Assembly: GCA_023627715.1 (NCBI GenBank)
Contig: JAMAHW010000133.1
Coordinates: 1 to 64,000, forward strand
Source: Periconia sp. R9002
Taxonomy: Eukaryota; Ascomycota; Dothideomycetes; Pleosporales; Periconiaceae
Reading direction: 5' to 3'
DNA length: 64,000 nucleotides
The notes beneath the pieces are model-generated. The model was not told the origin of the DNA. It worked only from the letters and a program-made list of their open reading frames with translations, and searched no databases. Numbering within the stretch: the stretch's first letter is position 1; every line of letters begins with the position of its first letter. Of the stretch, positions 21,628 to 62,477 are shown in pieces. The position numbers and the translations under genes are program-made.

Positions 21628-23153
21628 CTACTTGAAGACCTTACCGTCGGCCCACTCGTACGTCTTGCCGTCAACAACAATGGGCTTGTCCCATGCCCAC
21701 ATGTCGTTGACAAACTCCTTGTCTTCGGGGTTGGTGGGGTCGAGCTTGGTGAATTCGTAGCTCTCGTAGTCGGGGGCGACATCGAAAGCAGGGAGGGCTT
21801 CTTGGCCACGGACCAAGAAAGCACCCTTGATGATGGAGTCGTTGGTGACACCGTACACGGAAGCGGCACCGAAAATGTACTTGCGGGAAGCCTCAAGACG
21901 GGCGAAGAAACCACCTGAGCCTATTAGCAATCTGTCAAGCCAAAGCCCACATGTATTTACTTACCAATCAAGTTGGAGGTCATGAAGGTCATGGTGAGCT
22001 CGTCATTGTACTTGTAGTCAACCTTCCAGAGAGAGTACTCTTCGAAGTTGGTCTTCTCCCAGAACCAGGGCAGAGCAACCTCACGGGTCTCCTCGTTGGA
22101 GTACGTGCGCTTCAAGTCATCGAGAACGAAAGTGGCACGGGGAAGAGCATCGAGAGGGTGCTTGGGCTTGGGAGCAGGCTTCTCCTCCTCCTCCTCGTCA
22201 GCGGCAGCCTCCTTGGGCTTGGGGGCAGCCTTGGCCGGCTTGGGGGGAGTCTCCTTCTTCGGGGGCACATTCTTGATGGCCTCATCGATGAATTCGAGCT
22301 TGCCTGCAACAGCAGTGTAGCTGGGGACGTTGTAGACGGTCTCGTACCAACGGGTGACGTTGGGGTTCTCCGAGCGCCACTTCTTGTCAAAGAAGTACTG
22401 GAAGCCACGGGCAAAGATGGAGGCGGCGAAGATGTCAGCGAGGGTGAGGCGCTCGCCGACGAGGTAGGTGTGAGTAAGAAGGTGCTCCTCGAAGACGTGG
22501 ACGGCCTTGAGTGCGGCCTTCTGTGACTCATCCACGTTCTTCTTGTTGTAGGGGTCACGGCCGATGATGGGACGGAACCAGCCACCGAGAGGGGTGAGAA
22601 CCTCCTGGTTAGCGAATGACATCCAGCGGAGGATGGAAGCATAGTCCTGCTTGGTCTTTCCGAGCAGGCTGGTCTTCTCGTTCTGGGAGGTCACTGCGGG
22701 TGTGTCAGTCTGAGTCACGACGCAAAACCAAGCTACGTGAAAAGAAAACAGAGCGCAATGATATCAGAGTACAAAGATCTCAACAAGTGTGTTCAGACAG
22801 GGATAACTGTATAAATAATCTCATCCTTTTGACGCGGGGCGGGGTACGAGAGGAAAACGTGGCGATGTCACTTACAGTACACTGCGATGGCGATGGCCTC
22901 GGACAGGACATAGCCGTCAGCACCCTCGAAGGTAGGGACCTTGCCGAGCTTGTTGAGCTTGAGGTACTCAGCGGAGGCCTCGCTGGGCTGAGTCTCGACA
23001 AACTCAAGGTCAAGGCCATTCTCCTTTGCAACAGCGAGCAGCGACGTGGTGCGCGGGTTGCCCTGCAAGAAGACGTCAGGAGGCATTCTCAGGGCGCGTA
23101 AAAGCTGTGCGACGTAGACTCACCGCATAGCTGTAGAGCTTGCCGAAAGACAT
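21628..23153 (-). CDS. Translation elongation factor 1B subunit gamma
   Basis: Gamma subunit of the eEF1B nucleotide-exchange complex that reloads eEF1A with GTP (yeast counterparts Tef3p family Cam1/Tef4). Exons: 23153-23124, 23062-22876, 22693-21965 and 21914-21628; introns of 61, 182 and 50 nt; 410 residues, close to the family length. The N-terminal half is a GST fold: FGKLYSYAGNPRTTSLLAVA, LNKLGKVPTFEGADGYVLSE, then GERLTLADIFAASIFARGF. A charged linker (KKETPPKPAKAAPKPKE and a run of Glu) leads to the C-terminal EF1G domain with HPLDALPRATFVLDDLKRTY, ALPWFWEKTNFEEYSLW, GGFFARLEASRKYIFGAASV and FVNDMWAWDKPIVVDGK. The first coding exon has only ten codons. It shares a 281-bp divergent promoter with the mitochondrial ribosomal gene. 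Confidence 0.97.
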
Positions 23154-41204: not shown

Positions 41205-42768
41205 TCATGTAAAGCACTGATCCCAATGTCCACCACTCCTGGCGAAACTCTGACTCTCGACAAAATTGCTCAAAGTGCAGCGGCCATGCTTGTCACCCCC
41301 GCAGAATTCTAAAGGCGCAACTCGATCGTTCATAATCACTCTGACAAACTCTTCCTTTTCTCCTTCGCACTGCAGTTTCTCGACGTACATTCTCGCAGCA
41401 AAAGGCACTGTCCATGCTGCAGAGAACCCGTTGGTCTCATCCGTGCCTTCTATCGTGCTGTTTGACAAAGGCTTGGTGCTATTGTATAGACCAAGAGCAC
41501 CGAAGATAGCGCTCATGTCATTGTCGTGGCTGAAGTCGGCGTAGGCCTTACGGGCAAGCGGGAAGGTGGCCGGATCGGAGTCGAGAGTCGAATTAGTATT
41601 CGTATGGTCATCGACTGGCTTCTCCGTTAAGCGTGCGAGCAGCTCGTTAACATAACCCACACCTTGCGTAGGCCCAAGTGGATTACCATTCCCGTACCCG
41701 TAGTATTTGCCCAAGCTCTGGTAGTAATCATACTGGTGCCATTCCTCATCGCTGAAAATGTGGCAAAATTTCGATACTGTAGCTTTGGGAGAAGATAGCG
41801 TATCAAAAGGGCACATGTCCATTAGGTAAATGATTTCGGTCGGCGCAAGTGTGACTCCCAATTTCGCATTGACCCGTTGTTGGATCGGTGGAACGAACTT
41901 GGCTACCCAGGTCGCCTGCGCGTTGTCCCCAATCTTGTCTAGAGGACCTCCCTCAAAATTGACGCATATCTCGTGTGAAAGCGTGTTGTTCTGGCCCTTT
42001 GTCTCCGGGATGCTGACGTCGATCTTCCCAACCTCCTCTCTCTTTCCTTCCTGCGCAAATCCTGCCAGCCATTTCTCTGCGCTTTCGACCACGCGATCCT
42101 GCCCGGATGATCTAACAAACGGTGTCTTGTTTTCCAGAAACTTTGCGTAGCGCCTGTAGAAGTGAGCCCCAGAGTTGACCATCTCTTGCCTCCCTGCATC
42201 CGTCAACTGGTCGGCACCCAGCGTATATTGGTAATCCTTCAAGAACGCGAACTCGTCTTTAAACGTGGTAGTTGAGTTCTGTATGTATCCAATGAGAGCC
42301 CCGTAGGCAATGGCCTTGCTGGCTGTAGGATCGCGACCGCCATGCCTCGATAGCACAGATGCGAAGCTTACATCGCAACCTGGTGGCGGAAGGACGGAGA
42401 CCTCGGAGGGTACAGAGAACCACAGAGAGTACTGGCCCCAAAAATGGGTGGTCTCGGGGCTACAGCGGTAGCCATGGTCGATGGTATCGCAGGACTTGTT
42501 GCCGGTCGGGGCAGCGATGGATCTTGGAACGGCCGTCAACGAGGCAAGCAACAGGGCGAGGAAACGCGAGAGCCTACCTGGTGAGGCCATAGATACCGAC
42601 AAGAGAGCCAAAAGCTACAAAGGCGATGACGATAGTGCGGAACGTGGGAGCGCCGTTTTTGTAGTACTTTGAAGGAATCGAAGAGGTCTGTTTCTCGTCG
42701 TCACTCAGGGGCAGATGCTCGTAGGACTGCGAACGCGAGCCTCTTATCCGCCGCCAGAGAAGGGCCAT
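41205..42768 (-). CDS. Histidine acid phosphatase (phytase-like), predicted type II membrane form
   Basis: Enzyme of the branch-2 histidine acid phosphatase family, releasing phosphate from phytate or other phosphomonoesters outside the cytosol. Spliced model: exons 42768-42578 and 42522-41205, 55-nt intron with TTGAC branch site, 502 residues. Catalytic motif SRHGGRDPT (family RHGxRxP, with Gly where Ala is common) and proton-donor motif FSHDNDM are both intact. Other landmarks are HFWGQYSLWF, FVRSSGQDRVVESAEKW, MDMCPFDT and the ending FARSGGHWDQCF; NxS/T glycosylation sites are frequent. The first exon gives a short cytoplasmic N-terminus (YEHLPLSDDEK) and one membrane helix (TIVIAFVAFGSLVGIYGL). 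If the intron is kept, an ATG at 42590 instead begins a convincing signal peptide (SRFLALLLASLTAVPRSIA) and a 461-residue secreted enzyme. Confidence 0.9.
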
Positions 42769-46214: not shown

Positions 46215-46814
46215 CGAACACACTCTATATCGACCTGTCTCATCTGCCTCCTCCGGTATATATAACCTCAATATGTAGTATATATCTCATGCAATCGATA
46301 CAATATCCACTGTAGCTCCTATTGAAAGTCTAGCACAATGCTCTGCAATGCTATTGTGAGCAGATTTCTGTCTCGCCGGCCTACGTCATCGCCTGCCCTA
46401 GTTGCCCTCAGCGCGTTCTCAGTTGTTCACTCACCACCCACGTACCACCCACGTGACACAGGCCTGCCTGGTGCGTGCGCGCGTTTGAAAAACACAACAC
46501 CTCGTCCGCCTCCCACCTCTCTTTTCCATACCCTCTCGACTTTTGTGCACCTGTCTGTAGGTGCACCTTTGTCTGCTTTTCTTCTGCTTCTTCTTCTTCT
46601 TCTTCTCTTTTCGCCCCCTCCCCCCCCTTCTCCTCTGCGCCCTCTTCCGCCGCCGCCCTGCCCTTGTGGCACCCAAGACGACAACGGTGCAGATTTTTTC
46701 GACATCTGTACTTACCGCAGCGGCCTCGGTCGTCTGTACCCTTTTTACCGCAGCAACCTCGGTTGTCTGTACCTTTTTTACCGCAGCAGCTTCGGTTGTC
46801 TGTACTTTTTCGCT
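46215..46814. promoter_or_regulatory. Upstream/leader region of the SF1 helicase gene
   Basis: Contains the 3' UTR of the permease, a CT-rich tract with TTC repeats at about 46580-46610, and C-runs. It ends with three tandem hairpin units (46713-46811) abutting the helicase ATG. The helicase frame stays open back to an ATG at 46338, but the translated product is Leu/Pro runs and the repeat itself, so I do not call it coding. Confidence 0.55.
46713..46811 (+). repeat. Three tandem 33-nt hairpin/T-tract leader units (helicase gene)
   Basis: Units start at 46713, 46746 and 46779, each exactly 33 nt: TACCGCAG, a 4-5 nt variable loop, YTCGGT, then YGTCTGTAC and a pyrimidine/T run. ACCGCAG and CTTCGGT pair imperfectly to form a small hairpin. 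The third unit ends 3 nt before the ATG at 46815. A partial unit (CGACATCTGTACT) precedes them. The same three-unit array precedes the protease gene at 54444. Confidence 0.9.
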
Positions 46815-49800
46815 ATGTCTGTTAACCAGAAAAGCACTGCTCAGGATGTTAATCCTGTAGCTCCACCACAAGTAGTGAACACTCCGGCACCACCAGCGGA
46901 TGTAGAGATGACGGACGCTGAGCAATCAAACATCAGTGAGCAACCAAACATCATTGATGAGGATGTAGAAATGGCGGAGAGTGCTCCTCGAGTCAAGCGC
47001 GCCTCTAAAGTGACTTCTCATCCGAAACGCTACATTAGCTTGAAGGATATGGGCCCAGAGCTGAGGGATCTAGTGCTTAAGATGGATAAAGACTTATACC
47101 CAGATTGGATTCCACTCCCCATGGGTTATAAAATCAACACTCGAGACATTTTCGAACTCCGGGGAAACGATGACCCACCTACCTCTTCTGCACCATCTTC
47201 TTGGTCATCTGTAAAGAAACATCCAGTTATTATGGGTGTGTCAGTCGAAGACAGCTTCAAGTGGTTCGGAAAGAACATGGTTCTTAGCGTTGAGGAAGCT
47301 AAGCAAATGGCCACCGGAGCGCAACTCAATCCCGCAAAAATTCCTCGCCATGGTAGTGTCAAGGTTCAATTTTGCATGGACACCCAGACACCCTATGTTC
47401 TGGTCCAGATCATAGACAAGCAAACCAACCGCCCATTCTCGGCCAAGATCTTCGGTGAACGTCTGATGTGGGATGTTGAATCAATGGATGAGGAACACAT
47501 GGAACCTGCTATCCTCATCCAACACGAGGAGGTAGGAAAGGAATTTGAAGCATCAGACGATGGCTCTGAACAGCAAGCAATCCTATCTCAGATGTACGAC
47601 ATGGGAAAGCACAGCGTGGTTCGGGTTCGCGTATTCCTTCCTGGAAAACTGGAATACGTTGATACGGATGGGAACACGGTTCAGCAGAGCAACGATCTCT
47701 GCTGGGAAGCATCATCTCACAAGCGCCTTCAAGAGATAATCAACCCGATGATGCCGTGCACCGAGGGTACTACGCAATGCAGCGAATTTTACCAAGCCCT
47801 CGAATCCGCGTGCCAACTCGATTTCTACCTGGCGCTCGGTCGGTCGCAAATCAAAGGATGGCTAGATCTCGCAGACTATGCCAACCGCCTGTTTGCCCTC
47901 TCCAGTTGGATGCAGAACTTCTGGTTCTATCGCGGTCAGCTATGGATTGACGGCAACGATGAGGATACCAATGCTGGTGGGATTGAAGCCGTGGAACTCG
48001 CACCTATAGACTGGGTAACACCACGCTGGCTAGTCAAGGAGTACATGTTTGATGTAATCACAGACTCCAACGGTGCGATCCGCCTCGAGAACCCGGTCCC
48101 CTCGAAGTTCGCAAGCCATAGGATTCCCCAGAGTTATCCCCATCCAGATGAACTCGCCTTCTTGCTGAAGCTTGCGATCAAACAGGAAGGAGATGAACAA
48201 TTCAAACAGCTCTCCAGCCTGATGCAGAGTAAAAACAACTTTGTATTTGAAGGCCGATTCCACAAGGCTCCAGGGCATGAGGACCTTTTCGCCGTTGAGA
48301 TCTTCTCAGGGATCGAAGCGGAAATGCAGGAGCTGCAGCTCAAGGAACCGATGCCTGGCACTCGGATCGTCATCGAGGCAGATCCAATGTCACCTTTCGA
48401 CCCCCAGGAGGCTCAGTTGGTGAAGATGACAGGAGTCGTTGTCACCGAATCGTTCCACCAAGGCGCCACGTTTGCAGCCGTTGTTACCGGTCCGAGGTTA
48501 CCTGTCCAGGAAGACGCGAAAGTCCCGGTCATGGTTTCTTATGTCGAAGCTTCACTTCCACGAGAGAGACAAATGGGGTCTGTAGAAAAGATCCAAAAAA
48601 TTGACTCGGATCGCAAGCCTTTTGGACCGGACGTGAAAGGCTTGATCCTGGCCTGCGACAAACCTGTCACTAATGTTTGGGAATGGGTAATTACGGAAGA
48701 CCAGAAGAACGAAGTGCTGGCTCATCTCCACTCACGCACGCCGAGCCCCAACAAGGCCCAAGAAGACGCCATCATGGACACCATCCTCTCCAATACCCGT
48801 TCAACGGTGGTTCATGGCCCTCCTGGTACTGGTAAAACGAGAACCGAGGCCTTGATGGGTGAGGTTCAGGCTGAAGTGCTTGGGCACAGGGTTATGTTCA
48901 CAGCCCCACAGAACTCTGCTGTCACCGGATTAGTCAAGGTATGGCAGAACCGTTCCAACCCGAAGCTGAAGGATTATGAATGGGTCCATTTCACGGGTGC
49001 CCATTTCTCTGTTGCTGCCGCCGAACGGCTTCGCAAGCGCCAAGTCCTTCTCGACGAAGTTCAACGCAGCTATGAAAACGCCATCATCGACTGTGTTACG
49101 GATTCGAATGAACGTGGCGCAAACCCCGAATATGCGACGACCTTTGGATACAAGAGGGAGCAACGCATCGATGCGTGGGCACTGGATAAGGACCACCCTC
49201 AACACGAGGATGCCCGTGCGTACGTGGAACTGCGCAACCAAGTACGCTACACCTTCGCCAAAGCGACGAGACGGAAGCTGCAGGCACAGCTCAGGGAACT
49301 GGAGTATGACCTCGGCGTGTATTACATGAAAAACGAGGTCAAAGTCGTCTTCTGCACCTTGACAGCAGCTGGACACGACATGTTGCAAGAGGTGGACCTT
49401 TGGCATACGGTGATTATCGACGAAGCCGCCCACGAGAACATGGCCGGTTTGTGTGTCGTCCTGGGTTCCCTAGTCGGCAAAATGAACCATCTTGTCTGGG
49501 CCGGCGACCATCACCAAGGCCAGGGAATGATCGCTTCGCAAGGGGCAAACGTTGGATATGCCATGATTTCTCGTAACGTCTTTAGGACCCTTGCGGAAGA
49601 AGAGAACGATGAAGACCTCAAGGCCCCTGCCCCGGGAGTTTTCCTCTTGAATCACTGCTATCGAATGTCCAAGGATCTCTTTGGGTGGTCTTCGAAAAAT
49701 TGCTACGGCGGTAAATTGGAGGCGGTTCCTGGAGTCGACAAGAGGGACGTAGAGCTTCGCCAGACCCTAGATGCATTCTTCTCTCGCATGCGGAGGGGCA

Positions 49801-50576
49801 ACGGCTCCAACTACAACGTTGGCATCGACGTCACTGCCGACAATATTCGTAGTCAAGTGGTTCCCGGTCAAACTACCAAGCGGAATATGGGCGAGGCCGA
49901 GGTTATTGCTTGGCTTGTATCCTCAATGATATCATTCACCCCTCCCGCTGGTGGGCGACGAATCGTGGCCGACAGCATCTACATCATCTCGAACTACACT
50001 GGTCAGGTCCGCGCCATTCGAGATTGCATCCACGAGATATCCAAGAGGCTGAACGCTTCTCTGGCCGCCGAACTCCGAAAGATTCAAGTCATGACGACGG
50101 CGACAGTTCAGGGACGCGAGCGCGACATCGCCATCTATAGTACCGTGCTGGCAACTGGCAATACTAGGATGAGTGCAGAAGACCATCTGGGATTCGGCTT
50201 CATAGCTGATAAGAGCAATCTCAATGTTTCCATCACTCGGCAAAAGGTCGCCCGCGTGATTGTCGGGGCTCTAAAGCTGTTTTGTCAAGCCAAGTCAGAT
50301 GGTCACCCGGCTGTTGCCCGCGCCGGTCGTCCGTTTTTCGAATTGTTCTGGGACATGTTGAACAATGACCAGATCATCTCGTATGATCAAATTCAACATT
50401 TCCGAACGAAGAATGAGAAACCGGTCGAAGTTCCCGGTGTGACCATACTCCCCAAGCCGTCTGCAGCGACTTCCGCTCCGCGGGGAGGTGGTGGTGCCCG
50501 TGGCCGAGGTGGTAATCGCGGTCGAGGCGGAAATCGCGGTCGCGGTGGCCGAGGCGGTCGAGGCGGTGGCAATTAA
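46815..50576 (+). CDS. SF1 RNA/DNA helicase, UPF1-like, with C-terminal RGG tail
   Basis: Intronless gene of 1253 residues. An N-terminal region of about 640 residues is not recognised (acidic start, then mixed alpha/beta). The superfamily 1 helicase core follows: Q-motif region NKAQEDAIMDTILSN, Walker A HGPPGTGKT (Lys674), motif Ia FTAPQNSAVTGLV, Walker B IIDEAAHEN (Asp869), motif III-like VWAGDHHQGQGM, FLLNHCYRM, motif V-like TVQGRERDIAIYS, and motif VI NLNVSITRQK with Arg1142. The order and DEAA box match UPF1/SMG2-, ZNFX1- and DNA2-type helicases. The tail (about 1215-1253) is an RGG box with repeated GRGGNRG, typical of RNA binding and arginine methylation. No CH-type zinc domain of true Upf1 is visible, so this is not the NMD orthologue. 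The role in RNA silencing, decay or genome defence is open. Start at 46815 is preferred over 46338. Confidence 0.88.
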   Translation: MSVNQKSTAQDVNPVAPPQVVNTPAPPADVEMTDAEQSNISEQPNIIDEDVEMAESAPRVKRASKVTSHPKRYISLKDMGPELRDLVLKMDKDLYPDWIPLPMGYKINTRDIFELRGNDDPPTSSAPSSWSSVKKHPVIMGVSVEDSFKWFGKNMVLSVEEAKQMATGAQLNPAKIPRHGSVKVQFCMDTQTPYVLVQIIDKQTNRPFSAKIFGERLMWDVESMDEEHMEPAILIQHEEVGKEFEASDDGSEQQAILSQMYDMGKHSVVRVRVFLPGKLEYVDTDGNTVQQSNDLCWEASSHKRLQEIINPMMPCTEGTTQCSEFYQALESACQLDFYLALGRSQIKGWLDLADYANRLFALSSWMQNFWFYRGQLWIDGNDEDTNAGGIEAVELAPIDWVTPRWLVKEYMFDVITDSNGAIRLENPVPSKFASHRIPQSYPHPDELAFLLKLAIKQEGDEQFKQLSSLMQSKNNFVFEGRFHKAPGHEDLFAVEIFSGIEAEMQELQLKEPMPGTRIVIEADPMSPFDPQEAQLVKMTGVVVTESFHQGATFAAVVTGPRLPVQEDAKVPVMVSYVEASLPRERQMGSVEKIQKIDSDRKPFGPDVKGLILACDKPVTNVWEWVITEDQKNEVLAHLHSRTPSPNKAQEDAIMDTILSNTRSTVVHGPPGTGKTRTEALMGEVQAEVLGHRVMFTAPQNSAVTGLVKVWQNRSNPKLKDYEWVHFTGAHFSVAAAERLRKRQVLLDEVQRSYENAIIDCVTDSNERGANPEYATTFGYKREQRIDAWALDKDHPQHEDARAYVELRNQVRYTFAKATRRKLQAQLRELEYDLGVYYMKNEVKVVFCTLTAAGHDMLQEVDLWHTVIIDEAAHENMAGLCVVLGSLVGKMNHLVWAGDHHQGQGMIASQGANVGYAMISRNVFRTLAEEENDEDLKAPAPGVFLLNHCYRMSKDLFGWSSKNCYGGKLEAVPGVDKRDVELRQTLDAFFSRMRRGNGSNYNVGIDVTADNIRSQVVPGQTTKRNMGEAEVIAWLVSSMISFTPPAGGRRIVADSIYIISNYTGQVRAIRDCIHEISKRLNASLAAELRKIQVMTTATVQGRERDIAIYSTVLATGNTRMSAEDHLGFGFIADKSNLNVSITRQKVARVIVGALKLFCQAKSDGHPAVARAGRPFFELFWDMLNNDQIISYDQIQHFRTKNEKPVEVPGVTILPKPSAATSAPRGGGGARGRGGNRGRGGNRGRGGRGGRGGGN

Positions 50577-50634
50577 ATACCTCGCCCCCCTTCCACTTGT
50601 GACATCAAAATGATACCTTTGTGTTTCAAGTTGT

Positions 50635-50649
50635 GGGAGGGTGGGTGGG
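50635..50649 (+). promoter_or_regulatory. G-quadruplex motif in helicase 3' UTR
   Basis: GGGAGGGTGGGTGGG, four G3 tracts with single-base loops, 58 nt after the stop on the sense strand. It could form a very stable RNA or DNA quadruplex. The same 15-mer recurs at 58473 downstream of the protease gene. Confidence 0.8.
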
Positions 50650-50661
50650 CGTAACTTCAAG

Positions 50662-50715
50662 GGCGATTATAACATTGGTATAATCGAACGAACAAAGAGT
50701 GGGTGGGGCTTTGTT
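50662..50715 (+). repeat. 54-nt hairpin block, copy 1
   Basis: GATTAT/ATAATC inverted arms (50665-50670 and 50680-50685), followed by AAAGAGTGGGTGGGGCTTT. A diverged copy lies at 52227-52280 with the same arms and the same trailing motif. Confidence 0.65.
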
Positions 50716-50745
50716 CAAAAAAAAATTTTTTTTTTCAAACATTTG

Positions 50746-51256
50746 GTAAGTCTTCACCGATTCCTTCGATTGCAAGTCTTGAAACTAACTCTGGAGAAGT
50801 AATCTTCTTTCAACTTGGCTTCTGTACGCCGGTATCCATCTTTAAGAGCAAAAACAAAAAACAAAAAACAAAAAAACAAAAAAAAAAGAAAAGAAAAAAA
50901 AAACATCAACCACATCAACCACATCGACCGCATCGATCGCATCACCCACATCAACCACATCGATCGCATCACCCACATCGACCGCATCACCCACATCAAC
51001 CACATCGACCGCATCGATCGCATCACCCATATCAATCAACGACATCACCCATATCAACGACAAAAAGCAGAAGACTACGAAGAGTCTTGAACTTCGCAAC
51101 TGTCACTATATCTGGCTAGTGAGCCATTCACCCCAGCGAGGTTTCTGATTAGTCTCTCGGCCACCACTTTCTACTTCTTAGACTTTCATTCTCAAAATCC
51201 GGTAAGTGGTTACCGAATCCTGGGTGGCAAGTCGTAAAGCTAACCATCTTACAAAG
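50746..51256 (+). repeat. Pair of homologous intron-like segments
   Basis: 50746-50796 and 51202-51256 both read GTAAGT, then ACCGA-TCC, GCAAGTC, a CTAAC branch-like site and a terminal AG. They align over their whole length although the flanks differ, so either the intron alone or a decayed exon-intron unit was duplicated. A third, weaker relative lies at 58494-58545 behind the protease gene. Confidence 0.5.
50903..51060 (+). repeat. CATC-based minisatellite
   Basis: About 158 bp of tandem 6/9-nt units alternating CATCAAC, CATCGAC, CATCGAT and CATCACC, arranged in higher-order blocks, preceded by an A-rich tract from about 50852. It is open in several frames, so ORFs over it are not evidence of a gene. 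Confidence 0.85.
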
Positions 51257-52016
51257 GTCTCCTAAAGTCTTTCAAATTCCTCGGAGCAAATTCCATTCAC
51301 ACAACAAGTCATTTCATTGAAAACCCCGCAGTCTAAGGGTGCCATATCTGTGCCGGTCATTCTAGTTCAACGACATCCGCGGTTCGAATCTCCAGAACGA
51401 TTCGCAAAGAGAAGAATTTTCCACGTCAGCCATACACCGATCACATATCAATGTCGCTTGTGTGGACTCTACCAAACGAGGTGAACACCGATCAAATTAA
51501 AAAAAAACCGGATGAGGATCGACGCTTTGACAAAGGAAATGGCAGTGAGTTTGAAGCAGCCATCTTCATTGGTAATCTTTACTTACAAGTTATCACCAGG
51601 TCTATTCGTTGTCAACAGGGACATCCAGATTGACATGCATTATCTCATTTTCGCATTCGACCCACAATATCACCCTCCCGACGATACATGACTGTTCAAA
51701 GACTTTATTTTCCAACGCTCGGCTTTCGTATACCAAAAGATACTCCACAAGATCAAACAACGATTTTCCAATTCACCACCTCTGGAACTACCTACATCTG
51801 CTCTCCCGCTTTGAACGGCTCTATAACTTGACCTGGGGAAGATCTCCGGAGTTCCGCACTGGACCATATGTACGACTCATCAACAACTTTCCAATACTTT
51901 GCGATGGTCAAGTTCATAATTTGCGTTTACGACTTATCCTGTCAATTCTTTGGTAGCGGACATGCATAGACATTAGTCGTAGGGACTGCTTCTCACTATC
52001 TCTCCTTTACGCGGGT

Positions 52017-52307
52017 ATGGACAACCAGGATTCAGAGCCCCACGATCAAATTCAAAGACGAATGGCCAACTTCAACTTTGCACCTGCAATCGGACACTGT
52101 CCATCATACGCGGCGGTTCTCTTGATTTTCTTATGTTTCCTTGTTTTACTATTGGTTTCCATATTGTTTTTTTCTTTGTTGGGGATTGCAGAAAAGTCGA
52201 TAGGAGGACAGACAAACAACATTCCGGGCGATTATGGCTTTGGCATAATCGATCAGATAAAGAGTGGGCGGGACTTTATCTACCAAATCTTTCGTATCCG
52301 AGGATGA
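52017..52307 (+). CDS. Possible small membrane protein
   Basis: A 96-codon ORF with true ATG. Residues 1-30 are polar (DNQDSEPHDQIQRRMANFNF), then one long hydrophobic segment AAVLLIFLCFLVLLLVSILF, then a tail that runs into the 54-nt hairpin block and the 165-bp tandem duplication. No family recognised. The tail overlaps repeats, so either the ORF is accidental or its true end is an intron not seen here. Low confidence. Confidence 0.25.
   Translation: MDNQDSEPHDQIQRRMANFNFAPAIGHCPSYAAVLLIFLCFLVLLLVSILFFSLLGIAEKSIGGQTNNIPGDYGFGIIDQIKSGRDFIYQIFRIRG
52227..52280 (+). repeat. 54-nt hairpin block, copy 2
   Basis: GATTAT at 52230-52235 and ATAATC at 52245-52250 with AAAGAGTGGGCGGGACTTT after them. 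It matches the block in the helicase 3' UTR at about three quarters of positions and runs directly into the tandem duplication. Confidence 0.65.
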
Positions 52308-52595
52308 TCTGGTAAGCCGCCACCTATACTTTGGAGAAGAAGCCACAACACTAATCATTCTAGGAGCCATCAAATTCCCATCTACTTCTCCTCCTTATGG
52401 TGGCCTTTTCAAATCTCTGCCAACCAGAGTGAGCGGGACTTTTTCCTATCAAATCTTTCGTATCGAGGATGATCTGGTAAGCCGCCGCCTATACTTTGGA
52501 GAAGAAGCCACAACGCTAATCATTCTAGGAGCCATCAAATTTCTTCCCATCCATGTCTCCTCTTTATGACGGCCTTGTCAAATCTCTACCAACCC
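52262..52595 (+). repeat. 165-bp tandem duplication with an internal intron-like segment
   Basis: Copies start at 52262 and 52427. Each contains ACTTT, CAAATCTTTCGTAT, GAGGATGATCT, then a 52-nt intron-like segment (52312-52363 and 52477-52528; GTAAGCC to CATTCTAG with a CTAAT branch-like site), then GGAGCCATCAAATT and a CAAATCTCT-CCAACC end. The copies differ by a few substitutions and one short indel. Confidence 0.8.
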
Positions 52596-53548
52596 CCTCA
52601 AAGCGACCTGTCACAAAAACCCCCTCTGAATCACAACTAAACCTTTTCTCTCGATCAAAAGGACGATTATTCGATAACTTTCCGCAATTCTCGTCTGCTC
52701 ATACATACCTAGTTATGTGCATTCAGGTCCATTTCTCCCTAGCTCTAGTCGCGGCTTATGAGCTTCAGCACGCGCACATCACTTGGTGCACATTTCATCG
52801 CCATACATGGTCACACTAGCACCATAGCCGATGGTATCTTTTTGCGCTGAGGTAGCTCTGGCCTCTGTCCGCATCCAAGGATATTTCGGTTTGAAAGAAC
52901 GGTTCCATTCTACCCGCTTAACTTCTCCTGGACTCCGTTTCCACATTCTTCATTGCAGTGGGCTGTACCTAAGAATTTGGCAACGAGAGTGATACTCTGG
53001 CAGACAAGCATACCTTAGGATCAAGCGTAGGCGACAGAAGCTGCAATACGAGGGTTCAGAGTGAGGACGTCTATTGGATGGTGTCGATGGAGATCGTTGA
53101 ATGGAGGGCGCCGTGAAGCGTGGAAGGAGAACGAGGAGAGAGGATAAGAAAGATATCTGAGAGATTTAGGGAGATAGTAGTCAGCTTGCAGAGAAATTCT
53201 AGACTACCCCTATAGCTTAATCTTTTGCAACAGTTACCCATCTCCTATCCTAAAGTGCCTAGGTACAGTAGGTTTCGTGTGTGGAGTCTTTCCATTCTGG
53301 CGCGATCAATTGATGGTACGGTAGTGGTCTGGGTATGCTGATGCGTAGAAAGTTTAGACTGTGAGATGGTCTTTCTACAAAAACATACCAGTGCATCTGG
53401 TGCTCCTAGACGAAAGAATCAGAAGTGGGCTGGGGTGTAATGGCCCAGTGTCAAAGTTTCTCAGGCAAAGGTATTAGAACACATTAGACATTACAGGGAT
53501 TGGTTTAATTCGGAACAGAGTGTCAACCGCACTTCCCGCTCTAAAGTA

Positions 53549-53642
53549 CTGCGAGGTTATGCACCCTGAGAGGAGGAAGGCGCGGATGAGCCCCGGACAT
53601 CCATGGATACATATAGGCATAGCTAGCTAGCATACCATACAT
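53549..53642 (+). repeat. LTR-like dispersed repeat, copy 1
   Basis: GCGAGGTTATGCACCC, GGAGGAAGGCGCGGATGAG, CCGGACATC, ATATAGGCATAGCTAGC and CATAC. The same order occurs at 63626-63720. A TATA-like ATATAGG centre and the repeated context suggest part of an old LTR or another transposon end, but no internal transposon genes were found. Confidence 0.55.
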
Positions 53643-54137
53643 CACCCATACATGAGCCCCTTACAAGTACTACGAAACAGCTTTTCAACAAACCTTCTAT
53701 ATGCTGTTCACAGTTATTCTAGACTTTGATTTCTGTCAGACAGCATTCCCAGGGTGTGCCAAACCCCGTAATGCATACAGGCTGCTCTCAGGTCACGTGT
53801 GCCAATGGAAGATTCACACCCATGATCAAATATTACATTGTGGTTTTCAGCTAGGCGTACAACAGACAATTGTCGACATTCCACACTTGAGCACACTGTT
53901 AAACAGTCTGTAGGCGGTACGTTAATTTTTTCACTAGACATGTCACAAGTATCTCAAGGTAGAAAGTGTGGTTGGGACCCTTTCCCCAGGCCTGCCAAAC
54001 CCCGTAATGTACATCTTGATATGTATCCAAGTCTCGTAGTTTTGACGCATTATAATCAATTGATTACTGAAAGCTACACATGTACACACATAGGTAGGTA
54101 TGCATGATGTTTGACGCGTTGACACGTGCTAGTCGCG

Positions 54138-54185
54138 ACCCATGTGCGAACATTTCCCAAACGGAAAGAACGACCGCACATGGGT
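54138..54185. repeat. 11-bp inverted repeat upstream of the protease gene
   Basis: ACCCATGTGCG at 54138-54148 and its exact reverse complement CGCACATGGGT at 54175-54185, 26-bp loop. It lies about 260-300 bp before the ATG. Confidence 0.55.
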
Positions 54186-54334
54186 AGGCGTGCCAAGCAT
54201 CGTGAGGTACGCCAGTCAAAGGACCTCGCCATTCTCCCCCCTTTCCTCCTTAGAATCATTGACGCTTTCCGAGGGTTTCCTTGTTGTTCACAAGCAGAGA
54301 TTCTCACTGTACGAATACCTAGTATTTGTACTTT

Positions 54335-54435
54335 TACCGCAGAGGCTTCGGTCGTCTGTACTTTTTCTACCGCAGTGGCTTCGGTCATCTGTACTTTTTT
54401 TTCACCGCAGTAACTTCGGTTTTCTGTACTTTTTT
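54335..54435 (+). repeat. Three tandem hairpin/T-tract leader units (protease gene)
   Basis: Units start at 54335, 54368 and 54403 (33, 35 and about 33 nt). Each reads YACCGCAG, short variable loop, CTTCGGT, TCTGTAC and a T run of five or more. The array ends 8 nt before the ATG at 54444. It matches the three-unit array of the helicase gene, while the sequences farther upstream do not match. Confidence 0.9.
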
Positions 54436-54443
54436 AAGACATC

Positions 54444-57400
54444 ATGTCTTACTGGCAAGAGCGAGCTCGGGGTCTCAAGGCCCGCCATCAAGCCCAGCTG
54501 AGAAAACCCTTTCCTGAAAGGATCCTTGCGAAAATCGCAGAGCTTCCACTCGAGGTAAGGAGAAGACCATTCGGCCGTTCTATGAACAGAGTGCTTTTGG
54601 TGAAGTGTCTCTGGTCTGGCTTATACCCAGAAAGTGCGTTCATGCACTACCAACATGAATGGGCTGCGTGGACAGGGTTTCTGAAGAAACGGGAAGCAAG
54701 TCCGTCGGCAGAGCTTCCACCTGCAAAGAAGCCGCGTCTTGAAAATGGGACACCGAGCGAGGAAAATGCAGCTGTTGATGCTGCAGACGATTCAGCTCAT
54801 CCTGCCGGCAACGTGCTAGCAACGAAGGCGGGTACAGGTGATGCGAGCGAAACGCCTGTGTCAATCAGCTCAGGAGGATCAACCCCATTCTCTGACGACG
54901 CGGATGCCCCAGACAAAGCTGCTTCAGCTAACGCTTCCTCAGGTATCCCTCGCAGAGATCCTCCCCTACCCAATGACGAGGAGATGGCCGATGGTCTCGA
55001 GAGTCCGCGTCCGCAAGACGACGACGATATGCCTCTTGTCGGTGCCCCCGGCGATGACGAAGATATGCCCACTTTGCGTCCGGAGGATGAGGATGACGAT
55101 ATGCCCCTTGAGGATCCCGCCGATGATGCAGACGAAGACCCGTTCGATATAAACAACGACCACTTGTTTAATGATGGCATAAACACCAGCGAAACAGTCG
55201 GAGCTGCAAAGGACGGTCCGCAGCTAGGGTTGACAGCCCTAGCCGCAGCAGACAGGATCTCTGCCGAGGATACAAAGATCCTCATCGATCACATCATGAA
55301 TAGTACCCATCACGTCGATCAACAGATCAAGGCCCTTATTCAAGATGTCGTGGATAAACCTAATCAGGCCGTCCACATCCATCCAATAAGTAATAAATCC
55401 CTTATGCTGGCAGATCTCCTCAGTCTCAAATACATGGAGGATCGCGGGCCAACGGCATGGTTTACCGAGGGGGTTATTCGATTGTTGTTCGAACTTGAAA
55501 TAGCTCTAGGTATTCCAGTCGCAGCCCAGAAGCTCAAACGGAAAGCGGCAGAGGTTTTCTGTTTCGATAATGCTACTATGTTCCTAGGCAGCGGTCATAT
55601 ATTCGAAGAGTTATTCAAGGATGAAATCCAGGCCGGTATCAATGGCGAGCTACCAAGCCTAGGATGGCCATTTCAGGGATTAGAGCCCAGGCATACTCGA
55701 GTGCTGTTCGAAGTCAATCCCCGCGGTAACCATTGGATGGTGCTGGAGATCATTTTGGGCGCTCAAACCAAAATCTTGTTGTACGACCCTCTGAATGCGA
55801 TATCTAGCACTTCCAGAAAAGTGCTACAGAGGGATCTCCCGCATTTTCTGCAGCATGTCAGCAGGCAGCCTGGGTCGCCGCTCGCAGGTATCGACTGGTC
55901 GAAGATTCAGATGGAAGCCGTTAGATGCCCACAGCAAGGATATGTCGGCGTTGATTGCGGCCCGCACACAGTATACATGCTCACGAAGCGCCTGTACGAT
56001 TTGCCGTTTGCGTCCGAGAATGACCAGAGCAGCGACGAGTCGCGCCATGTCTTTTCTCAGACTCTCCGCGAGCAATGCATCAAAGCATTGTACATGTACA
56101 AACGCCTGTCGGATTCGGATTCGGATTCGGTTGTGACCCTTCGCCATCTTTTTGCGGATATGGAGAGTGGCGGTACTTCGCGTGCGGATGGAACCGGCGA
56201 GCTTGACGTCGGTGGTGAGGCTGCTGGCGCTAAGGTTCGCACAAGCCGTCGCCTTGCCACAAAGGCCCATGACGTCGGTGGTGAGGCTGCTGGGGCTAAG
56301 GTTCCCACGAAAGCCACTCCCCGCTACTATGCGGGCAGCAGCAATGACAATGGTCATGACGGCGGCAATCAGCAAACTCGTGATGATGATGACGATGATG
56401 ATGATGCTGATGCTGATGCAGGTGGCCCAGATCAAACTGCCAACAATCCTGGCGAAGCGGTTGTTCGTAATGGCTTTATCATCGACGATCCGTCCCAGGG
56501 CGACCCTCGTACGCTTGACGAACAATTTGCCGAGCTCGCAGAGGGCGTGGATTATCGCCCCAGAAAAGGACCATGGCGATTCTCGTTGACTAAAGGAGGA
56601 AATAAATCAGTTGTGGTTTGCTTTCGTCACTCAGCTCGCAGGAATCACAAGAACCTTTCTATTAAGAATTTCCTCAGACTAAAGGAGAAGCAGATAACTC
56701 AATGGTTCCTATCGTTCAAAAAGATGACAAAATCAGCGCACACAATCGAAGACGTCGTAGTGGTAGGGTCTAGTTATGTCCAGACACGATACACTCCAAC
56801 TCTCAAAATAGCCAACCCCTCGACCGAGATACACCCCTCGACCGAGATACACCCCTCGACCGAGATACACCCCTCGACCGAGATACACCCCTCGACCGAG
56901 ATACGACAAAAAGATGATACAAGCAAGGGGGGGGGACACATCATAATCGCCCGATGCCCGTTGTGCAACAAGGCCGTTCGTGCACACAGTCCCCGTAATT
57001 TTTATCAACATGTCGGAACCCATGGAATCAAGACTTTACGTGGACATATAACTGTTCAGCACGGCGGCAAGAACATCTGGAGCTGCCCCAACTGCAACTT
57101 GACAGCTCCTTATGGTGATGGCACGCAAAGGGCCGCGGTTCGCCAGCATATTGGGAAGGAACATATTCTTCCTGACATAGAAGCACAAGGAAAGCTGATT
57201 GAGATTAGCTGCACTGCCTGTGATTATAAGACATCTTGCCAAAACCTCGAGCACAGGCATCTGAAGGAGTTCGAAAAGCATACTAATCGGGACGAGTCTA
57301 GAAAGCGTGCTAAATATACATGCCCATGGTGCGGACACTCTTGTGCCAGCATGGAGGCTATCCAAGGCCATTTCCTGTGCCACCAAGACGAGCAGCTGCC

Positions 57401-58349
57401 CCCTGGTTACATGCGTTGCAAATCCCTGTTACCAGAAGAGGGCATGACTTGGCGCGAAATTCTTGAAATTAGTACACAGCTTCGGTATTCCTTACTCAAC
57501 AGTGTCCTACTACAGCATGGCGGAGTATGCCCTTGGTATATTGCAGGAACGAAACAATGCTCTACCAGTCGGCAATTCAAATCCACAAGTGCCTTATCTC
57601 TCCACATTCGAAGCAGCCACTACGATTGTACATGGCCGCAGCCACCATCGCCCTGCAACAAAGTATACGCAGACATTGCGTCTTTTCTTGAACACCAGAA
57701 ATTACATGTTGTGCCAGCTGACCCTGAACAGGCACCAAAACCTAAAAAGGCACCAAAACCTAAACGGGCACTAAATCGACAGCAGGAAGTGGCTAGAAGG
57801 AGTAGGCCTGCATGTATCTTCAGCAATATTATTACAACAGATCTCTATCGAGCTCGCGACCACTTTCCGGTCCTACTGTCAATTGGACTTGATGGTTTCT
57901 CTTGCAATGCGAGCCTCATGTCAACCTGGCTCCAAGAATTAGGCTTCGATTTTATATTCTCTTGGATTAGTGACAATTGCAGGTCGCTTAATCCAGAACT
58001 GGTTGAGCAGAGAGTAAGTTCTTTTCCCAAATAATTTCTAGGCCTCTGATTAATGCTTTATAAAATATAGATAATCAATGGTTCAACTACGTACTACTGT
58101 GGACAGTACTCTTCGTCGACCCTTATATCTGCCTGCCAAAACCCCGACTCGGTGCCACCAGAATACAAAGATCTTGTTCTGTGGTGGGGTGTAAAACAAA
58201 ACCAAAAAAATATACAGAGCAGCCATTACAATGCCCGCAACAATGCACCGACGTCTGATTTGGAATCAAGTGGAAACGAAACCGGCAGCGACAGTGAAAG
58301 CGAAGACGACGAGAGCGAACTTGGGATCGACACGCTATTTGACAATTAA
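54444..58349 (+). CDS. Ulp1-type (C48) cysteine protease with C2H2-like zinc fingers
   Basis: Exons 54444-58013 and 58071-58349 (57-nt intron), 1282 residues. The N-terminus is basic with a likely nuclear signal PPAKKPRLE (about residue 95) and then a long acidic low-complexity region rich in DDDMPL-type repeats. The protease domain spans about 320-540: His430 in NHWMVLEI, Asp448 in LLYDPLNA, Gln497/498 in CPQQGYVG and Cys505 in VDCGPHTVYML, the full Ulp1/SENP catalytic set, so it probably removes SUMO or a similar modifier. Then come a duplicated DVGGEAAGAKV unit, a poly-Asp run, five HPSTEI repeats (about 792-820), and at 838-1110 several Cys/His pairs (CPLCNK..H, CPNCN..H, CTACDY..H, CPWCGHSC..H). 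The C-terminus is acidic. Protease-zinc-finger fusions of this kind occur in transposon-associated and lineage-specific fungal genes, but no transposase is adjacent. Confidence 0.8.
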
Positions 58350-58487: not shown

Positions 58488-61218
58488 CTTACTGTAAGTT
58501 TTCCGAATTATCGACTAATTGATCAATTGAGCTGATTCTCGACAGATGACACAATCTTTTCGTCATTTTTCTTTCAATTTCGATCTTTCGTTGTCTATAT
58601 ATATTTGCGACTTGAATCTTTTAAACCGACTACTTTCGAAAACACCATACGGCAACACAAAATTTACTTTGATCTTCTAAACTTTATTTTCACTATATAC
58701 ATTGGCGACCTACGTAGTTGAATCAAAGTTTCTCGAACACATTATGGCACGAAATCTATTTTCGTCTTTGCGATTCGACAGCTACGCATACGCGTGACGC
58801 CGGTCACGTTTGGCAATCGTTGATTCACCACCCAATCCGACACTTCTATCATTATGACATCGTTCTCGTTGCAACATCCAGAATATCTCCTCTCTTCGAT
58901 ATCTGTCTATATCTTGTTCATTTATTTCAATTCTTACCTTTCCGCTCCCGTTCTAATATACCGAAAGATCTCTTCATTCTGCTTTTTAAATTATACACGT
59001 TTTCATGACCAACATCTCTGTGTCTGGGAAAGCTATTTCAAACGACTTAGTTCGGGGATACCGATATTGTTCGGTACGCAGATTCTCAATACATGGCGAT
59101 AAAGGGCTCAGTGCTAATTCTCCCAGATCCTAGAGGCCTTCTCAGACTGGGAGTGGTGGACTTGTCTTCCAGAGCATGCGTCAGTGGAAAAAGGTATACA
59201 TTCGCGTCACTGAGTTACACGCTAACGTTTCAAAAGGATGCGAGACGTGCAGAGCTTCATTTCGTACGAGTGTCGGCCCATTTAAAGAAAGCTTTGTGGG
59301 CCATCATCCTTTTGTCCTCCATTGCTTAATACCCGTGTTGCGACTGGCATGACACCGCCATATGAATGTCGCATCATGGGAGAGCCGATTCAACACATAG
59401 AACCCAGGCGTACATAAGTTCTATTCAATCTCCACAGCAATTATTAACACTGCTGGTATTTTTGCCGCAACAAGCATTGCAACAACCAACAAAAACCCCC
59501 CCTCTTTACACACGTCAACAACTGCCGCAATCTTCGATCACTGCAATGTGAAATGCCTAGCAGCATCAAGATTGTTAATCGGCTGAAGGGGATTCCTATT
59601 CATTCTTTCTTCAGCGGAAAGTCGAAGAGCAGCCTCTCAATCGAATTGTGATGCAGATCCTGGATGATCAGTCTATCCTCCCCGTCCGAAGATTATCCTT
59701 TTCTAAGCTTTCAACTTTCGCCAACTTTATCTCTAATGTCGCACCTTCGGATGACACAGTGCAATTCATCATGTCCGTCATGCATGATTCACCCGAAAGT
59801 TGAAAAGGTCCATGTCCTCCAGAGTCTCATTATCCACCGGATTCTTCTCAATCTCAAGAAGCGATGGAATGTTGATCCACGCCGCGATCCGATTGCTGTA
59901 CCATTCAATGAACACCATCGCCATCTATCTGATCGTATCATCCCAGAGAATATACACATTTCCGATTCTTCGAAACACATTACCCGGCCTAAAATAGCTG
60001 AGCACATAACCCAGCTCCAAGCGCCCTTCAAAATCCACCGCGACAGCTCGGCTTCTATCGCTACATATTTCACGCGAGCATGACAGCTGGCCTGCTCACC
60101 ATTCTTGATTCCGGACATTCCCATTCTAGAAGAGCGCCACACGAACCTATTAACATTCAATCCTTACAGACGTCATCTATTGGAAATTGATACGAACTGT
60201 GACCGTCATCGCCACCACCAATCATAGTGTGATTAGTTATTGTCATCTAAGGTAATTCAGGAGCTCTTATGGTATTTACAATATGCTCATCTGATTTTGC
60301 AAGATCCAGTGCTTCAAACCTAACTGCGGCCGATGGCGCGTTGTCTCTGCTCGGTCCGCCTGATTATTCTGGCCGACCCTATCGTCTAGAAAGGAGCACT
60401 TGAGGGCAGTCTTGGTTGGCTGGGAGCACCATGGAGCTTACAACATCTATAGTGAGTACAGCAGGGCAGTCTTGTTTAAAATCTACTAATCATCTCCGCA
60501 GCTTCTCTAAGGAATCCCGCTTGGCATAGCAGATTCGCTTTTGAGATAAACGGTACGCTCCAACAAAAGCCTCAACGCTCACATGCATCCTTCATTGCGA
60601 GAGCAAAAGGCTCTATACATTGCCTATCATTCCATTTGGGAATTCCTCGAGTGGATTTACTCTACTAGTGTGCACCATACTGCATGGCGATCAACCATCA
60701 CTTTCCTAACAACTCGCATTCAGCTCTCGAATTCACGACCATCAAAACTTTCGCTCTGCGACCCCTGCCTTCTCTTCACATCAATTTGTCAGAACACCCT
60801 ATTTCCAGATGAATCAATTACACCAATCCATCGCGAAGAAGAAAACACTTTTAATCCGGATGAATCACGACTGACGACTGCGCACCCAGCGGGACGCGAC
60901 GCTTCAACAGACAGCAGAGTCATGACTCAACCACGCCCACCATATCCGTACCCCAGACTCTGACGTAACTAGACAAGGACCAGGCTTGCGTTACTAGTCT
61001 TGGCAGGCTCTGGCACCTTCTCCCCACAAACCCACGCAAGACAATCACAACAAGAAAATGTCTAATATTTGCTGCAACATCGCTCCATCTCCTCGTCAAA
61101 ATCTGCAGGAAGGCGGATCGTACTGTCCTCCCTGTGCAGTGAGACGTGGCTCCTCGACGTACGAATAGAACCTGATTTCGCAGCCGCTACCGCCGCCGTC
61201 CATCCCGTTAATTTGATT

Positions 61219-61431
61219 TGCCATTGTTTCTTTGCCATTATTTCTTTACCATTGTTTCTTTGCTATTGTTTCTTTGCTATTGTTTCTTTGCTACTATTTC
61301 TTTGCTATTATTTCTTTGCTATTATTTCTTTGCTATTATTTCTTTGCTATTGTTTCTTTACTATTGTTTCTTTGCTATTGTTTCTTTTCCTTTGTTTCTT
61401 TTCCTTTGTTTCTTTTCCATTGTTTCTTTTC
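61219..61431 (+). repeat. 14-nt minisatellite (TTTGCTATTGTTTC)n
   Basis: About fifteen imperfect tandem units of TTTGCTATTGTTTC with CCATTG, TACTAT and TTTTCC variants at the ends. Translating it gives Leu/Phe/Cys-rich pseudo-membrane ORFs in all three forward frames, which are artefacts. Confidence 0.9.
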
Positions 61432-62210
61432 CACTTTCTCTTCCAATTCTCTTCTCTTTATACCGCAGCCGTAACTCTGCAACGAACGTTTACACGGACT
61501 TTGCCCTTAGCCAGGCAGTAGTAACGAGGTTAGTGCCACCATCGCATGATCAAGTCACCGCCTAACGTTGGTACGAAGGGAATATTGCGACTGCCGTTTA
61601 CCAGTACCACGTACCCATTTTCCTCCATAGAAATTCCCGTCCACGGACGGAGAGCAAAAACCAAGCAAAGACAAGCACCCTTCCCCAACCGCAAAGATGC
61701 ACTTACAATGGTTTGCCGCGATGTCGGCAATCGAAGAAGACCATAATCATACGCCTACAGACCGTGTTTGAATATATACGAATCAAACCAGTGAAATCGT
61801 CGGTCGGTCTATTGTTACCTCTCTGACAATAATAATCTTCTTTGTCGCGTGGCAATATGGTCGCCCACGGTATTAACACATCAACGTCCTCGGACGCGCA
61901 CACACCACTTAACAAAGAAGAAATGGGGAGTAGGGAAAAGGCTATCATCAAGCCATCGTATTCCACGGTACATCGACCACAAACCGTCGGTCGATTGCAG
62001 AAACTTCACCAGCCTCTCGCTAAGTTCGCGAACTTTCATATATATCAGTCGATCAGCCCATCGAGCTGAGCATATATATGCTCCCAATCCACCAACGTGC
62101 ACCCATTCCTCCGTTCGAAAACGACGTACGCTTACACACAACGATATCAACTTCACGACAATGAGCGCTTTCAAAGACCCAGGCGTGAAGCGTTCTTGGC
62201 TGGATGTACG

Positions 62211-62477
62211 TTCAATGCAAAAGGCGTCCCATCCGACCAATCTGAGTGGGGCCATCCTGAGGTGGCTATTCTATTCACCGTACTGGCTCACTACGACAGC
62301 GGCTTCAGTCTCGAACAAGTTATGTACGCCAGAGTCTACGCTTGTCGCTCGGTCTGATAATCCAGCTCGAGCTTACCAAGTTTTATCCACGCCGCGATCC
62401 GATTGCTGTACCGTTCAATGCAAAAGGCGTCCCATCTGACCAATCTGAGTAGGGTCATCCTGATGTGGCTATTCTGC
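62211..62477 (+). repeat. Direct duplication of a 62-bp coding-like segment
   Basis: 62211-62271 and 62416-62477 share TTCAATGCAAAAGGCGTCCC, ATCYGACCAATCTGAGT and GTGGCTATTCT at about 90 percent identity, 205 bp apart. In the second copy a TGG codon has become TAG, a G-to-A change consistent with RIP. Confidence 0.75.

Follow-up and report, generated by a model that had tools for sequence, protein, structure and literature searches.

In the ascomycete Periconia sp. R9002, two genes for unrelated proteins, a superfamily 1 (SF1) helicase and a putative protease of the Ulp1 type, are each preceded by three tandem copies of the same short hairpin unit, which end only a few nucleotides (nt) before the ATG. 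Both genes lie in the window analysed here, a stretch of 64,000 nt of contig JAMAHW010000133.1 (positions 1 to 64,000, forward strand; assembly GCA_023627715.1). The unit is conserved in sequence and structure, holds the same place before each start codon and is rare in the genome. Our favoured reading, to which we give about an even chance, is that the arrays are RNA elements of the 5' untranslated region (5'-UTR), through which a few genes would share post-transcriptional control. Its main rival is a functionless hairpin, mobile or copied, whose remnants happen to lie in leaders.

Arrays before the two start codons

We label the units of the helicase leader h1 to h3 and those of the Ulp1-like leader u1 to u3. 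The features concerned, all on the plus strand of the window, are as follows; folding energies are those with the common stem imposed.

46568..46655, plus strand: pyrimidine-rich tract 5' of the helicase leader, seen by eye; probable core-promoter region
46707..46814, plus strand: helicase leader, with four TGTAC/T-run boxes (46707, 46735, 46768, 46801) and three hairpins
46713..46745, plus strand: hairpin unit h1, CUCG loop, -10.5 kcal/mol
46746..46778, plus strand: hairpin unit h2, CUCG loop, -9.3 kcal/mol
46779..46811, plus strand: hairpin unit h3, UUCG loop, -8.1 kcal/mol
46815..50576, plus strand: SF1 helicase of UPF1/IGHMBP2 type (AAA_11, AAA_12) with an RGG-rich C-terminal tail, 1253 amino acids
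54230..54251, plus strand: pyrimidine-rich tract 5' of the Ulp1-like leader, seen by eye; probable core-promoter region
54327..54443, plus strand: Ulp1-like leader, with four TGTAC/T-run boxes (54327, 54357, 54390, 54425) and three hairpins
54335..54367, plus strand: hairpin unit u1, UUCG loop, -6.2 kcal/mol
54368..54402, plus strand: hairpin unit u2, UUCG loop, -7.8 kcal/mol; two additional T precede u3
54403..54435, plus strand: hairpin unit u3, UUCG loop, -4.2 kcal/mol, the weakest fold of the six
54444..58034, plus strand: Ulp1-like cysteine protease gene (Peptidase_C48 domain), 1196 amino acids

The units of array h start at 46713, 46746 and 46779, and the array ends at 46811, 3 nt 5' of the ATG at 46815. 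Those of array u start at 54335, 54368 and 54403, and its final T-run ends at 54435, 8 nt 5' of the ATG at 54444. An initial annotation of this DNA had placed three tandem units directly before both ATGs, and they are indeed found at those positions and distances. Its unit length of 33 nt describes array h (spacing 33 and 33) but not the whole of array u (33 and 35), and the T-runs are likewise unequal between the arrays. Tandem Repeats Finder detects the two arrays independently. A search of the window for the 26-nt core, allowing up to 3 mismatches, returned six matches, all of them exact, and 100 shuffles of the window returned none. Across the six units, 23 of the 33 positions of the first are invariant.

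The likeness extends slightly beyond the units themselves. TGTA stands at -108, -80, -47 and -14 before the helicase ATG and at -117, -87, -54 and -19 before the Ulp1-like ATG, with one more at -136 outside the array. When the upstream regions (300 nt each) are aligned, the best local alignment starts ahead of unit 1, by 9 nt on the helicase side and 11 nt on the Ulp1-like side, and includes a fourth TGTAC box (46707, 54327). The sequences farther upstream had been described as unmatched, which holds beyond this box but not up to it. Each array therefore consists of four TGTAC/T-run boxes with three hairpins in between. Within 250 nt 5' of either start we found no ATG. The same 250 nt hold no CNYUCNYU, the motif of Ssd1-type sites, and such sites were dropped as an explanation.

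One alternative is that the helicase array is coding, as the reading frame is open from 46338 and array h is stop-free and in frame with it, so that the unit would be an 11-codon repeat. Of the variable columns, 8 of 10 fall at codon positions 1 or 2 and 2 of 10 at position 3, with no sign of silent variation; about two thirds would fall at positions 1 or 2 by chance, and the count thus amounts to a lack of support. Array u, moreover, does not share the frame of its gene, and not all of its spacings are multiples of three. We dropped a coding repeat, which has hardly any probability left.

A bulged hairpin with a YUCG loop

The best hairpin has the form GCAG-NRRC-YUCG-GUYN-U-CUGU, that is, 8 pairs with a one-base bulge and a YUCG loop (-4.2 to -10.5 kcal/mol with the stem imposed). 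Folded alone, each of the six window units adopts the GCAGNRRC/GUYN-U-CUGU stem, shifted in u1 and short of one pair in u3. It had been suggested that the units could form small hairpins, and all six do, but with this stem rather than the ACCG/CGGT pairing then proposed. The latter reaches only -2.0 to -2.1 kcal/mol and has no changes on both sides, and it was dropped.

For covariation we aligned 8 units, the six of the window and two from another contig, C70 (described below). Pairing is kept in 61 of 64 cells, against 30 to 48% of cells in slid controls. The pair of columns 10 and 20 is GC in four units, AU in three and UA in one; that of columns 9 and 21 is CG in four, GU in one, UA in one and something else in two. 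Changes on both sides thus affect 2 of 8 pairs and 6 of 64 cells, with few independent events behind them. Only 2 of 500 shuffles reached as many cells with both-sided changes and as high a covariation score, and 4 of 500 the percentage paired. Single units fold with z-scores of -0.99 to -2.92 and array h with -2.91. The covariation of the stem is suggestive and falls short of proof.

The same sequences could be read as DNA. ACCG and TCGGT do not vary among the six window units, CCG-N9-CGG is one form of site for zinc-cluster factors, and the spacing is regular, as would befit promoter sites for a transcription factor that co-regulates the genes. Transcription-factor sites, however, are rarely found 3 to 8 nt from an ATG; the pairs that covary are those of an asymmetric bulged hairpin centred elsewhere, and one copy of the unit lies inside a tRNA-like gene. 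We regard promoter sites as rather unlikely.

The unit in the genome

Searches covered the genome of 42.9 Mb in 267 contigs, the window being part of contig C133 (64,421 bases). The 26-nt core, with up to 3 mismatches allowed, is matched at 10 places, namely the six window units and one each on C167, C10, C39 and at C70:204833, where the reversed-pattern control has 3. A gapped exact pattern gives 7 matches (the six window units and C70:206841; control 1). The junction TGTAC-T-run-ACCGCAG with up to 2 mismatches occurs 19 times against 17 in the control, and the 3 of 19 with fewer than two mismatches are all in the window.

A profile built from the six window units only was searched in 75,605 bases of 8 fetched loci, picked via pattern or protein matches. 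With structure, it finds a unit in the tRNA-like gene (E 7.5e-6), a unit before a gene that we call gene A (E 5.3e-4) and one chance match (E 4.1). Rescaled to the genome, the first two become about 0.004 and 0.3, on model E-values that are rough. With structure added, the score of the gene A unit climbs from 13.1 to 25.5 bits, and that of its tRNA-like counterpart from 21.8 to 32.7 bits. The decoy on C167 reaches 17.2 bits on sequence, above the gene A unit, and with structure is absent from the listing at E 10; scoring differs somewhat between the sequence and structured models. A descriptor in which only the loop frame, closing C-G pair and T-rich tail are fixed, and 7 of 8 pairs are required, was written with the units already known and run over 266,680 positions from 8 sources. 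It recovers the six window units, the gene A unit and one chance match, and misses the tRNA-like unit because of an extra base there.

The matches on C167, C10 and C39 were dropped as units: they equal the control count (3) and do not appear in the structured profile at E 10. Among 56 fetched tRNA loci the structured profile gives 5 matches at E 2.2 to 8.4, which is chance level. Viral contigs hold 0 matches, and prokaryote genome contigs hold 4 single matches in 257 Gb where about 7.5 were estimated by chance.

At the sensitivity of the patterns, the 42.9 Mb thus contain 8 convincing copies, of which 7 stand in leaders, on the sense strand and ahead of an ATG. Outside the window and C70, matches are no more numerous than about the reversed-pattern control; more diverged copies may lie below the thresholds. 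Given this rarity, the unit is neither a common dispersed repeat, the contrary case that the initial annotation had raised, nor the mark of a large regulon. A family of genes with the same array, which it had named as support, emerges only weakly: a single clear but diverged unit stands before one further gene, and a tRNA-like gene holds another.

Gene A and a tRNA-like gene

Two further units lie on C70, 2.0 kb apart and on the same strand, a pair that, from sequence, would hardly have arisen by chance.

C70:204832-204864 (L023:4833-4865 in the fetched locus): gene A unit, 13 nt before the first ATG of the gene A open reading frame (ORF)
L023:6806-6915: tRNA-like gene with a 36-nt intron that holds the unit in the anticodon loop, predicted by ARAGORN with introns

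As with arrays h and u, the gene A unit stands directly before an ATG on the same strand as its gene. Gene A is unrelated to the helicase and Ulp1-like genes; it has no Pfam match at E 1 and a paralogue on contig C1 (32% identity, E 7.6e-23). One stop interrupts its frame where the C1 paralogue, by eye, continues; gene A may be broken or hold a small intron. Two further TATAC/TATAT boxes, seen by eye upstream in its leader at an array-like spacing, are possibly decayed units. We compared 120-nt leaders with arrays h and u by best alignment, with 1000 shuffles each and ten tests in all. For the gene A leader, 23 of 1000 shuffles reached its score with array h and 0 of 1000 with array u. For the leader of the C1 paralogue the figures were 23 and 465, and we do not claim it as a relative. 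Before the ATG of that paralogue (L100:1023), three tandem repeats with 16-nt spacing (ATTTTATCGCTACAGC-like) occupy L100:938-998; their sequence is unlike the unit, yet again has T-runs and CAG.

The tRNA-like gene has one acceptor mismatch, an intron that ARAGORN draws between 33 and 34, a non-canonical place, and an uncertain anticodon. Searches turned up no second copy, L023 has no Rfam tRNA match at gathering score, and the gene is absent from the matches (at least 59, mitochondrial included) listed by a genome-wide tRNA search in which 63 of 1247 candidates were scored. Introns are common in tRNA genes here, with 26 other distinct intron-bearing predictions of more than 78 nt among the fetched tRNA loci. 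A unit at the intron position, and a unit made of a hairpin and a U-tract, could speak for processing sites, cut by an RNase III-like or tRNA-splicing enzyme, that would tie mRNA leaders to tRNA intron biology. By eye, however, no bulge-helix-bulge or other known cleavage signal was recognised, and the intron place and anticodon are as doubtful as just described; we give processing very little probability. The tRNA-like copy fits recognition at the RNA level and, equally, a mobile or copied hairpin.

The two proteins and their paralogues

The identification of the first protein as an SF1 helicase is borne out by an AAA_11 and AAA_12 core; against TIGR00376 it scores 116 bits, under the NCBIfam cut-off of 349. 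A protein-database search gave one weak match, a tick SMUBP-2. The search words came from the first 500 residues, which precede the helicase domain, so that a lack of relatives is not implied.

The second protein could be recognised as an Ulp1-type protease, as had been proposed, only when the Peptidase_C48 domain was scanned alone (E 4.8e-5, 23.7 bits against a cut-off of 20.7); the whole protein has no Pfam match at E 0.001 and no C48 match at E 1. Its structure model failed, with a predicted local distance difference test (pLDDT) score of 38. None of 7994 candidates in a protein-database search matched residues 1-620.

Paralogues of both genes occur elsewhere. On C16, a helicase paralogue (L025:2748-6497, minus strand) is open over 1249 amino acids and lies head to head with an ORF of 202 amino acids (6842-7450, plus strand). 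This ORF resembles Ulp1-like residues 232-345 (25% identity across 125 columns, with E 1e-5 for this comparison taken singly) and is not listed at E 0.001 in a genome-wide search with the whole Ulp1-like protein, so that its likeness rests partly on adjacency to the C16 helicase. If the likeness is right, helicase and Ulp1-like genes would be neighbours at two loci, which suggests an accessory module rather than chance neighbours. A further helicase paralogue lies at C70:136 kb, and a helicase fragment of 45-48 residues (56-58% identical) lies between the two C70 units, beside gene A. C38 carries a paralogue of the Ulp1-like N-terminal part (37% over 242 columns).

Units in the leaders of the C38, C16 and C70:136 kb paralogues were considered and dropped for want of a profile match. 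In the leader test, the shuffles (of 1000) reaching the score with arrays h and u were 281 and 383 for C38, 525 and 8 for C16, and 556 and 259 for C70:136 kb; the 8 for C16, one of ten tests, is not taken as a sign of relationship.

Repeats of other kinds lie near these genes. At 50850-51062, a few hundred bases past the helicase stop, an A-rich tract is followed by a 9-nt satellite (ACATCAACC). A repeat stretch at 62205-62475, near the contig end, is 87-91% alike to L025:2096-2365, downstream of the C16 helicase paralogue.

Leader element or mobile hairpin

The position and strand of the arrays, the hairpins with U-tract linkers, the 250 nt free of ATG and the pyrimidine-rich tracts noted by eye together fit a transcribed leader. 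In the favoured reading, each mRNA leader would carry three bulged hairpins capped by YUCG tetraloops, separated by single-stranded UGUAC/U-tract linkers, in a row that ends 3 to 8 nucleotides ahead of the AUG. Acting together, the hairpins would most likely serve an RNA-binding protein as a multivalent site or confront the scanning ribosome with a graded barrier, and the UPF1-like helicase, the Ulp1-like protease and gene A could come under common control of translation or mRNA fate. Transcription of the leader, the binding of a protein to it, the direction of any effect and function itself are inferences from sequence. A candidate for the bound protein is the RGG-tailed helicase, in which case the control would be autogenous; that it binds its own leader is a guess from the RGG tail. 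Selection at the RNA level, one of the origins proposed initially, is favoured by the retained stem with some compensatory changes, by array u being out of frame and by the absence of an upstream ATG in the 250 nt, but is not proven.

Several observations pull the other way. In the genome-wide pattern search the gene A unit stands at the limit, level with three other matches and with the control. Related units can beat shuffles without any structure; as many pairs with both-sided changes were reached in 220 of 500 shuffles, and as many additional pair types in 233 of 500. A single inherited event may account for the G-C/A-U split, with the U-A of gene A as a second. Array u has only a slight folding advantage over shuffles (z -1.24), the whole leader of gene A has none (z -0.13), and neither the gene A unit alone (z 0.41) nor the tRNA-like unit alone (z -0.63) beats them. 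Finally, the profile search found no unit in the leaders of the C16 and C70:136 kb helicases or the C38 Ulp1-like ORF.

In the main rival, a tiny hairpin without function came to lie in a few leaders and in a tRNA-like gene, through insertion or because leaders were copied within an accessory module, and was amplified in tandem. One copy does lie inside the tRNA-like gene; pieces of the helicase, Ulp1-like gene and gene A travel together (the adjacency on C16, the helicase fragment beside gene A on C70); and T-runs and unit spacing vary between the arrays. On the other hand, there are only 8 convincing copies, 7 of them sense and in leaders before an ATG, and changes compatible with the stem would not be expected in dead copies. 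We consider this explanation unlikely, though with a real chance of being right. A common mobile origin, also raised in the initial annotation, is neither demonstrated nor excluded by these data.

A bolder variant of shared control, to which we attach little probability, is a private RNA-protein circuit of a fungal accessory module. In it, one factor, perhaps the helicase, would read the YUCG hairpin in the leaders and in the tRNA-like intron, and the intron copy could serve as a sensor or a sponge.

Other features of the window

Ordinary genes (TAF4-like, ribosomal S9, phytase-like, permease) lie in the left part of the window, and the helicase and Ulp1-like genes lie from about 46.6 kb on. 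The phytase-like protein (41205-42611) shares 91% identity with a counterpart in Periconia macrospinosa and 86% with a counterpart in P. digitata, which places the host among the Pleosporales, within Periconia or close to it. A C/D-box small nucleolar RNA, snoR38, at 22758-22835 (minus strand) exceeds the Rfam cut-off, the only Rfam match to do so across L023 and the window. A 14-nt tandem repeat, TTTGCTATTGTTTC, occupies 61217-61429 in about 15 copies.

Relation to known RNA elements

Rfam 15 has no match at gathering score over the arrays, only 2 and 3 matches at E up to 10, with 10 to 13 bits, far under the cut-offs. Searches of the literature in PubMed Central, outside which most subscription-journal papers lie, brought up no description of the element. 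Cis-regulatory 5'-UTR hairpins are short stable stem-loops near the AUG, and the units resemble them in stability, place and restriction to the sense strand, but differ in being three tandem, near-identical bulged hairpins with U-tract linkers, common to unrelated genes. The roX RNA reportedly has tandem stem-loops and U-rich boxes bound by an RNA helicase. Repeated stem-loops beside U-rich stretches are shared with it, whereas roX is a long non-coding RNA of flies and the Periconia elements precede fungal start codons. Small palindromic dispersed repeats are short inverted-repeat units; ours is one too and likewise interrupts a tRNA-like gene, but its convincing copies number only 8 in 42.9 Mb, and 7 of these precede an ATG in leaders.

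Implications

To our knowledge, few cis-acting RNA elements have been described in filamentous fungi, and these arrays suggest a small RNA control element not described before. A repeated hairpin that marks very few unrelated genes and recurs in a tRNA-like gene makes shared leader control a concrete and readily testable idea, and it may offer a handle on how accessory gene modules regulate themselves.

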